Source of the DNA: Phycisphaerae bacterium
GTDB taxonomy: Bacteria; Planctomycetota; Phycisphaerae; Sedimentisphaerales; Anaerobacaceae
Assembly: GCA_028714255.1 (NCBI GenBank)
Contig: JAQTMR010000004.1
Coordinates: 62,001-126,000, forward strand
DNA length: 64,000 nucleotides
Reading direction: 5' to 3'
The position numbers were made by a program, and so were the translations under genes. A model generated the notes under the pieces. That model did not search any database. It worked only from the letters and a program-made list of their open reading frames with translations, and was not told the DNA's origin. This document shows, piece after piece, positions 4,869-8,231 of the stretch. The number at the start of each line of letters is the position of its first letter. The stretch's first letter is position 1.

Positions 4869-7800
4869 ATGGCCATAAAAAAGAAGCAGGTAGTTACTGC
4901 TCAAGTTTTAGGAATGTTTTTCCTTTTAAGTTGCCCCTGTTTTGCTGTTTCCCTGTTTGTTCCGGGTCAGTACCCGACAATCCAGGCAGCAATAAACGAT
5001 TGCAACGACGGGGACACCGTTATCATATCAACAGGCACCTACGCCGGCACAGACAATCGTAATTTGGACTTTGGGGGGAGGGCTATTACTGTTCGAAGCC
5101 TTGACCCCGAAGACCCCGGTGTTGTTACCGCGACCATAATCGACTGCCAAAGCAGCGGACGAGGCTTTTATTTTCACACAGCAGAGACTGAAAGTTCTGT
5201 TGTTAGCGGTCTAACGATAATTAATGGTTCTGCTACAAATGGCGGCGGCATATATTGTATCTTCAGTTCACCAAAGATAACCAATTGCATTTTCTCCGGT
5301 AACAGAGGCGATTATGGCGGAGGAATGTATAGCTACAGCAGCTCTCCGAATCTGACCGGCTGTGAATTTAGTGATAATTCAGCAACTAACGACGGAGGCG
5401 GAATATACCAAGAATACGGCAACTCAACACTGAAAAACTGTATATTCCTCAGAAACGTATCTGATGACACAGGCGGCGGTATATGTATCAAGATAGGGAG
5501 CATGGCAGTAACCAACAGCACATTTGCTGAAAATTCCGCCATTCACGGAAAGGCCGTGTCCACGCTGGGCTACTGGTACACAGATTTAGCCGATATTAAT
5601 ATGATAAATTCTATCTTGTGTGACGGCGGTAACGAAATCTATGCAGGCTTTTTTGGCACCGCGGTTGTCAGGTATAGCAACATTCAGGATGGTTACAGTG
5701 GTACTGGCAACATAAACGCGGACCCGTGTTTTGTAACCGGCTCTCAAGGCGATTACTACCTAAGCCATATCGTTGCTGGGCAGGGTAGTGATAGTCCGTG
5801 CGTAAATGCCGGCAGTGATACGGCACCTAACATGGGGATGGATGAATTTACAACACGAACCGACTATGTTAGGGATAATGGAATCGTGGATATGGGTTAT
5901 CATTATCCGGTCATACCAGATTCGCCTGATATCGATAGGAACCTTAGCGTTGACCTGTTTGATTTTTCTATTTTAGCCAACTATTGGCTGCTGCAGGGCG
6001 AGCCTAATGACTCAAACTACCGGGCTGGTGATATCACAAGAGATTTGAACGTTGATTTTAAGGACATTTCGGAATTGGCAGATGCATGGCTGAATTGCCT
6101 TGTGAAACCTGCGAGTGTTCCCAATCCTGCCGACGGAGCAATGGGCACAGATGCAAACGTGGTTCTCAGTTGGTCAGCAGGCTATGGCGCATTAGAACAC
6201 GATGTTTATTTTGGAACAGACGCTAATACCGTAGGCCAGGCCAATCGCTTGTCAGAAGAGTTTATGGATACGGTCTCGGAAGTAAATTTTGCTCTATGTT
6301 TGCTTGATTTCGGGACACCTTATTTCTGGCGGATTGACGAAGTAGGACCAAGATGTACAACCAAAGGAGTTACCTGGCGTTTTGCAACATACCCCCATCC
6401 AGGCAAGGCAACTGACCCTGTCCCTGCTTATGGTACTATAATAATCAATCCAGAAATCGTTGAGCTAAGATGGGGTGCCGGTATATTTGTTACCTCTCAC
6501 GATGTTTATATAGGAACCGACTTTAACAACGTAAATGAAGCAAACACCCTGTCACCTGAATTTAAGGGCAGTCAAACTTCGACAAGCTACGAGATGACCG
6601 GCTTTAATGTAAATACCACTTATTATTGGCGAATTGACGGGAATAACTCCTATGGCACAGCCAAAGGAGATGTATGGAGCTTTAGTATATTGTTCGACCC
6701 CAATTTTGTCAGTTGGTGGAAATTCGATGAGGGTACAGGAACAACGGCGTATGATTCTGTTGGCAGCAATGACGGAATTGTCAATAAAGCAGAATGGATA
6801 GTCGGCAAAGTTAATGGCGCATTAAACTTCGATGGTTATTATGATTCAGTTGATGTCAGCATTTATCATCTGTGGAATAAGTATATAGGAAACCCCGTAC
6901 TGCCTACCCCAACGAACGCCTTTGGAAGTGTCTGGCTTGATGAAGGCATATATCATTTTTATTATACTAATCTCCTAAACGTTTATCATGCTACCAGTTC
7001 CGACGGATTAAATTGGCAAACATACCCTGACCCTGTTTTAACCGGAACTACCGGCCAATGGGACGAACGTATCGAAGTGTCAATGGTTTTTAAAGACAAT
7101 GATACGTGGTATATGCTGTATAGAGGGCATAATTATATTGGACTGCCTTATTCTCACGCAATAGGACTTGCCAGTTCTGCTGATGGAATCAACTGGCAAA
7201 AAAGTGAGTTTAATCCTGTTCTAACTCCCACCTCCGGCGAATGGGATGGGGTTTATATGGACAGGGGAGAGCCCATGAATTTCGACCCCTGGGGGATAAT
7301 GAAAATAGGTTCCACTTATCACTTATGGTTTAACGCTGATAATCCTTCGTTAAGCAGAGCTACCGGCCTTGCTACATCTACCGACCTGGTTAATTGGACA
7401 AAAGACGCAAACAATCCGATTTTTACACATGGAAGGTTCTGCGTTTTCCCATTCAAATACGGAGATTATTATTACATGATTGTCACAAGCGGAGGATATC
7501 AAAAATACGTTACAACTTTTGAGCTTTACAGGGATAAAAATCCCACATTTTATTTGAAAGACAGAGAATTTGTAACTCATGTATTAAAATGTGGACCGCA
7601 AAGAGCATTCGATGAAAAGTATCTCGACACGCCTTGTGCAGTAACAAATGATATTTATAGAGATTCTTTCCCAAGCGATACCGTTAAAGTATATTATACG
7701 GGAGAAGCTCCTCCGATAGGTGTCTGGAGGCACGGGTTGGCAACTTTCAATCTTTCCGATTTAGTAAATCAACCATCAAATAAACTTCCCTATAAAACCA

Positions 7801-8231
7801 ACAATATGACTTATGCAGCGTGGATTAAACCTGATACGCTAAATTCAAGCTTCCAGATAATAATAAACAATGGTACCATTTGGACAAGAAGTCTTTTTCT
7901 GTATTACAGTATGCTTAGAGGATATGTCGGTTACTCGACAAGCGGTGCATGGGGTATCTCTATAAGCGGAACTATACAACAGGGTATTTGGCAACATGTA
8001 GCCCTTGTTCTCAAAAATAACATTATTCATCTTTATGTTAATGGTAATGAAGTTATCTACAGCAACCGGGTTGCAGGAGTCGGACCACCAATAGACTACT
8101 CAGGTAACAATTTAACTATCGGTAATGATTGCATCGCCCCAAAGCCTTTCAACGGTTCCATCGATGAAGTGCTTGTCTATGACAGGGCACTGAGTGCGGA
8201 GGAAATTCGAGAACTCGCGAACTCAGAATAA
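4869..8231 (+). CDS. Secreted modular protein: beta-helix, dockerin-like, two Fn3-like, LamG split by a beta-propeller
   Basis: A 1120-residue exported protein with a signal peptide (residues 1-27, ending SCPCFA). Residues about 30-330 form a right-handed parallel beta-helix of the pectate-lyase type (YPTIQAAINDCNDGDTV opening, repeated NGGGIY / DGGGIY / GGGI turns). Residues about 352-410 are a dockerin-like calcium repeat (DIDRNLSVDLFDFSILANYW, then a second copy with DISELADAW). Two Fn3-like units with the HDVYFGT / HDVYIGT motif follow (about 415-610). A LamG/concanavalin-like domain begins at about 615 (WWKFDEGTGTTAYDS...GALNFDGYYDSVDV), stops at about 663 and resumes at about 978 (MTYAAWIKPDT...GSIDEVLVYDRALSAEEI). 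The roughly 310 residues between look like a GH43/GH32-type propeller with repeated SSDGLNW / SADGINW / STDLVNW blades. No catalytic residues are assigned. It probably binds or processes glycans at the cell surface. Confidence 0.8.
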   Translation: MAIKKKQVVTAQVLGMFFLLSCPCFAVSLFVPGQYPTIQAAINDCNDGDTVIISTGTYAGTDNRNLDFGGRAITVRSLDPEDPGVVTATIIDCQSSGRGFYFHTAETESSVVSGLTIINGSATNGGGIYCIFSSPKITNCIFSGNRGDYGGGMYSYSSSPNLTGCEFSDNSATNDGGGIYQEYGNSTLKNCIFLRNVSDDTGGGICIKIGSMAVTNSTFAENSAIHGKAVSTLGYWYTDLADINMINSILCDGGNEIYAGFFGTAVVRYSNIQDGYSGTGNINADPCFVTGSQGDYYLSHIVAGQGSDSPCVNAGSDTAPNMGMDEFTTRTDYVRDNGIVDMGYHYPVIPDSPDIDRNLSVDLFDFSILANYWLLQGEPNDSNYRAGDITRDLNVDFKDISELADAWLNCLVKPASVPNPADGAMGTDANVVLSWSAGYGALEHDVYFGTDANTVGQANRLSEEFMDTVSEVNFALCLLDFGTPYFWRIDEVGPRCTTKGVTWRFATYPHPGKATDPVPAYGTIIINPEIVELRWGAGIFVTSHDVYIGTDFNNVNEANTLSPEFKGSQTSTSYEMTGFNVNTTYYWRIDGNNSYGTAKGDVWSFSILFDPNFVSWWKFDEGTGTTAYDSVGSNDGIVNKAEWIVGKVNGALNFDGYYDSVDVSIYHLWNKYIGNPVLPTPTNAFGSVWLDEGIYHFYYTNLLNVYHATSSDGLNWQTYPDPVLTGTTGQWDERIEVSMVFKDNDTWYMLYRGHNYIGLPYSHAIGLASSADGINWQKSEFNPVLTPTSGEWDGVYMDRGEPMNFDPWGIMKIGSTYHLWFNADNPSLSRATGLATSTDLVNWTKDANNPIFTHGRFCVFPFKYGDYYYMIVTSGGYQKYVTTFELYRDKNPTFYLKDREFVTHVLKCGPQRAFDEKYLDTPCAVTNDIYRDSFPSDTVKVYYTGEAPPIGVWRHGLATFNLSDLVNQPSNKLPYKTNNMTYAAWIKPDTLNSSFQIIINNGTIWTRSLFLYYSMLRGYVGYSTSGAWGISISGTIQQGIWQHVALVLKNNIIHLYVNGNEVIYSNRVAGVGPPIDYSGNNLTIGNDCIAPKPFNGSIDEVLVYDRALSAEEIRELANSE

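Follow-up and report, generated by a model that had tools for sequence, protein, structure and literature searches.

The window, a 64,000-nucleotide stretch of a contig from a Phycisphaerae bacterium, contains a surface-polysaccharide locus in which a single open reading frame encodes a protein of 1120 residues (hereafter the host protein). The gene is preceded by those for an NAD-dependent epimerase, a Gfo/Idh oxidoreductase, a hexapeptide acyltransferase and a DegT aminotransferase, and is followed by those for a flippase, a Wzy_C protein, a glycosyltransferase and a PGA_cap protein. Directly downstream (8315-9700) a 461-residue secreted-looking protein without a Pfam match is encoded; it resembles TIM-barrel glycoside hydrolases by inspection and may cooperate with the host protein. 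The host protein begins with a signal peptide, followed in order by a beta-helix-like PMP region, a dockerin-like segment, two Fn3-like repeats, the N-terminal half of a LamG domain, a propeller and the C-terminal half of the LamG domain:

4869-8231, forward strand: secreted multidomain protein of 1120 residues, host of the nested domains (ORF; N-terminal hydrophobic segment MAIKKKQVVTAQVLGMFFLLSCPCFA read as a signal peptide by inspection)
4947-5918, forward strand: right-handed beta-helix-like region with Chlam_PMP repeats, residues about 27-350 (Pfam PF02415; homologues)
5928-6077, forward strand: dockerin-type-I-like segment, residues 354-403 (Pfam PF00404, 22.6 bits, slightly below the cut-off of 22.9)
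6105-6701, forward strand: two Fn3-like repeats, D1 and D2, residues about 413-611 (weak PF16656; the pattern YYWRID..GDVWSF found twice; homologues)
6702-6860, forward strand: N-terminal half of the LamG domain, residues 612-664, WWKFDEGTGTTAYDS..FDGYYDSVDVS (local LamG HMM positions 1-54, i-E 5e-18; 59-63% identity to the N-terminal halves of three relatives, L034, L035 and L036)
6861-7766, forward strand: inserted five-bladed propeller, residues about 665-966 (sequence matches; fold Z 20-22 to GH130, GH43 and GH117; a 47% identical homologue)
7767-8222, forward strand: C-terminal half of the LamG domain, residues about 967-1118 (PF13385, E 2e-26 at 968-1113; local HMM to position 208)

An HMM built locally on 13 uninterrupted LamG domains gave two matches in the host protein that follow each other in complementary order, residues 612-664 corresponding to model positions 1-54 and residues 956-1117 to positions 41-208 (i-E 1e-25). 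Structure matching assigned residues 956-966, the opening of the second match, to the last strand of the propeller. The spacing between the strands corresponding to DYVEV and AWIKP was about 15 residues in 20 ordinary LamG domains and about 320 in the host protein. The break that an earlier note had placed at residues 663 and 978 is thus present, and these breakpoints are correct within about 10 residues. The two halves are contiguous in paralogues from the same genome (contigs C1 and C17), in two genomes of the same genus (G001 and G002), in other Planctomycetota, in a myxobacterium MAG and in other phyla, which indicates that the arrangement in the host protein is an insertion. The clearest uninterrupted LamG domain within the genus, on contig C285 of G002 (L133), has the same Fn3-LamG order. 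These comparators are LamG relatives and do not include an orthologous empty site, since the contig of the closest N-terminal homologue (L129, on C171 of G002) stops exactly before the LamG position. The L129 protein carries an S8 peptidase, a PMP beta-helix and Fn3 repeats 53% identical to the host protein.

Laminin_G_3 (PF13385) scored 93.4 bits against a curated cut-off of 27.6 and reported residues 968-1113 only, covering profile positions 9-150 of 151. This nearly complete coverage favours another reading, in which the C-terminal LamG folds alone and residues 612-664 are a remnant, giving the order broken LamG, propeller, LamG. The end of the propeller, GLATFNLSDLVNQP, also imitates the LamG strands GALSFDG..DYVEVP (local HMM positions 41-54), as this reading would have it. 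However, the Pfam model begins after N-terminal strands that all LamG relatives possess (in the C1 paralogue its match begins 47 residues past the YWKFDEG motif), and the structure matches place GLATFNLSDL in the propeller. Moreover, identity to the same relatives (L034, L035 and L036) is 28-34% in the C-terminal half, well below that in the N-terminal half. The better conservation of the N-terminal half indicates that it is under constraint and is not a relic.

The inserted segment matched GH117 and GH130 enzymes by sequence (E 1e-5 to 2e-8), with GH117 anhydro-galactosidases as its best sequence relatives (E about 3e-8). GH32 (PF00251) was marginally above its cut-off of 22.1, at 22.7 with the whole protein and 25.8 with the insert alone, in a partial match to profile positions 19-122 of 307. 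GH130 (PF04041) remained below its cut-off (20.7 versus 26) despite a fold match at Z 21-22. Residues 48-361 of the structure model aligned to whole propellers of GH130, GH43 and GH117 at Z 20-22, which shows the insert to be a complete domain; the five-bladed GH117 propellers 4ak5, 4u6b and 3r4y were matched at Z 19.5-21. The top Foldseek matches over the whole model were GH32 invertases and fructosidases. The proposal that a whole propeller lies in frame between the LamG halves is thus borne out by sequence (GH117, GH130 and GH32) and by fold.

We modelled residues 612-1120 with AlphaFold2 (pLDDT 69.8, pTM 0.60) from an alignment that already placed LamG rows on both halves; three other folding alignments were left out because MAFFT misplaced the LamG halves in them. 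In this model, 184 of the 206 residues of Domain4 of the arabinanase AbnA (5hon), a continuous LamG-fold carbohydrate-binding module, were aligned over model range 1-507 (2.5 Å, Z 19.5). The C-terminal half can account for no more than about 143 of these, so that over 40 aligned residues have to be supplied by another part of the model, in the simplest case the N-terminal half. The pLDDT was under 50 beside the junctions and in the first LamG strand, and DSVDV did not appear as a strand. The complementary HMM matches and this structural match, at moderate model confidence, suggest that two non-adjacent segments make up one domain. Closure of the halves into one jelly roll, which the earlier note had asked of a predicted structure, is thus supported with moderate confidence, the edge strands at the junction being poorly predicted. 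The excess of aligned residues over the C-terminal half also counts against a C-terminal LamG that folds alone, a reading that we regard as improbable.

A second nested propeller was found in a genome of the same family and a different genus (G317), where the propeller is 47% identical over 276 residues. It belongs to a protein of 2511 residues in which four DUF2341-like/LamG units stand in tandem (L068, contig C21, 34000-50000). The protein is encoded next to polysaccharide genes; its neighbours include sugar-nucleotide genes and a gene for an SGNH-like protein. Three LamG units are intact and the third unit is interrupted: its first strand (DSNYKMVQHF) is followed by the propeller and then by LamG model positions 16-208. 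A related propeller, as judged from these alignments, therefore interrupts LamG at a different loop. Thus, the expectation of homologues was upheld in that a propeller nested in LamG exists elsewhere, whereas the same order, with the propeller in the same loop, was not found. In the G317 model the jelly roll closed with its N-terminal strand left out; this region is of low confidence, with pLDDT values below 50 for residues 9-32 and 245-333. This outcome is a point in favour of residues 612-664 of the host protein being a remnant. The two placements may have arisen by separate insertion events, or a single insertion may have been followed by recombination between LamG units. It is conceivable, though doubtful, that the propeller is a portable module which entered LamG more than once at two loops, in surface proteins of polysaccharide loci in related bacteria, and is an obligate insert specialised for LamG.

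The G317 protein was the only other full-length member of the subfamily among about 400 genomes of the class, 89 of the family, 161 of the order and 392 of the phylum, which are overlapping sets. No member was detected in 387 genomes of the phylum of another locus (L040), in a search run without a positive control. Searching genome contigs with the 505-residue nested stretch returned uninterrupted LamG proteins only; viral contigs scanned for it gave none, and plasmids gave one weak unrelated match. Two candidates that spanned the query length (L033 and L035) were rejected, as each consists of two ordinary LamG domains. In many genomes of the family, a glucosidase-like alpha/alpha-barrel is fused to a C-terminal GH130/GH43-like propeller (L008, L010, L045, L046 and related loci).

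The genome assembly comprises 39 contigs, and an artefact could in principle have fused two genes. However, neither junction recurred elsewhere in the genome; the insert itself gave chance matches only, about 22 bases long. The frame 4869-8231 is uninterrupted with both joins in frame, as had been claimed, and the LamG halves are complementary. GC content was 0.409 in the N-terminal half, 0.408 in the propeller and 0.406 in the C-terminal half, and GC3 was 0.358, 0.365 and 0.368, respectively. Together with the homologous interruption in the independent genome G317, these data make an artefact extremely unlikely, and the check that had been called for at both junctions gave, on the assembled sequence, no sign of misassembly. 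The equal GC and GC3 of the three parts also indicate that the insertion does not look recent. Composition gives no support to a recent horizontal gain, and mobile-element boundary repeats were not found at the insert.

It had also been suggested that the propeller offers a possible active face. In GH117 enzymes, Asp90 is the base and His302 the acid, with Glu303 adjacent (PMC11574756). Neither His302 nor Glu303 is kept in the insert, where they are aligned to Arg and a gap: the host protein reads GRFCVFPFK against GEEVCVWPYK of the GH117 H302E mutant, and the G317 homologue also reads GRFC. The base Asp of blade 1 is absent, its position being Ala or Phe in the host protein and Thr or Phe in G317. 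By inspection, blade 1 reads TNAFGSVWLDEGIYHFYY and lacks the GH32 nucleophile motif WMNDPN. For the Asp, Asp, Glu triad of GH43, no GH43 sequence match gave a register; by inspection, the blade-1 Asp appears absent. One blade-3 acid is kept, as Asp in the host protein and Glu in G317, and might serve another chemistry. This retained acid and the likeness in sequence and fold to GH130 phosphorylases and GH117 are what would be expected if the propeller were an active, diverged GH117/GH130/GH43 glycosidase or phosphorylase, its nesting coupling an enzyme with a binding module. The Arg in place of the GH117 acid, the missing Glu303 and the substituted blade-1 base argue against such an enzyme, which we consider unlikely; the mapping of these residues is at 15-20% identity, and with two members known, conservation tells little. 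The suggested active face is therefore not supported. The loss of the GH117 catalytic residues implies, as far as alignment can tell, that the propeller is most likely a non-hydrolytic, carbohydrate-binding pseudo-enzyme.

Taken together, it is likely that the host protein represents a genuine A1-B-A2 insertion with a closed LamG jelly roll and a carbohydrate-binding pseudo-enzyme held on two tethers. A five-bladed propeller of the GH117/GH130/GH43 type would have been inserted between two LamG strands of a secreted surface protein, in the loop that joins the one ending in DSVDV to TYAAWIKP. The N and C termini of the propeller lie close together, and LamG would still form a single closed jelly roll, from whose loop the propeller would hang by two covalent tethers. 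The propeller appears to have lost its GH117 catalytic residues. The protein would then bind sugars through two faces whose movement relative to each other is limited, probably on cell-surface exopolysaccharide.

Several known proteins combine similar folds in other arrangements. Some GH33 sialidases, such as the Vibrio cholerae sialidase, carry a jelly-roll lectin inserted in a six-bladed propeller. Both they and the host protein nest a lectin and a propeller, but in the host protein the order is reversed and the propeller lies inside the lectin fold. GH32 invertases and fructosidases (e.g. 1w2t) likewise possess a five-bladed propeller and a beta-sandwich, whereas their sandwich follows the propeller and is unsplit, and their catalytic motifs are missing in the host protein. 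GH117 enzymes (BpGH117, 4ak5-4ak7), which match the insert at Z about 20, are not nested, and their catalytic Asp90, His302 and Glu303 are not conserved in the host protein.

A1-B-A2 insertions occur in about 20% of multidomain proteins in the ECOD catalogue, and the insert is smaller than its host in 77% of the insertion events (PMC13114784). Here, in contrast, the insert (about 300 residues) is larger than the LamG host (about 205), so that a large propeller within a smaller lectin fold reverses the usual size order. The main text of the survey names neither propeller nor concanavalin hosts (PMC13114784), and we found no description of a LamG domain interrupted by a propeller in the open-licence literature. 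The nesting of one domain in another is well known; the nested propeller is a genuine though infrequent case of it, whose interest comes mainly from the second, differently placed case in G317. With these two cases it can be tested whether an inserted domain prefers a host fold over a host site.

The best structural match to the host LamG comes from AbnA, an extracellular GH43 arabinanase of Geobacillus stearothermophilus that likewise joins a five-bladed GH43 propeller and a LamG-fold carbohydrate-binding module in one chain (5hon; PMC9110388). The deposited structure of its Domain4 (residues 642-845) shows an unbroken LamG fold, whereas this fold is split in the host protein, and AbnA is a working enzyme, whereas the host propeller is a predicted pseudo-enzyme. 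The domain motions of AbnA are reported to be very large, up to about 100 Å (PMC9110388). The two tethers of the nested protein would restrict such motion; the rigid joining of the two folds put forward in the earlier note is an inference. The effect of two-point tethering on avidity could be tested against the flexible tandem arrangement of AbnA.
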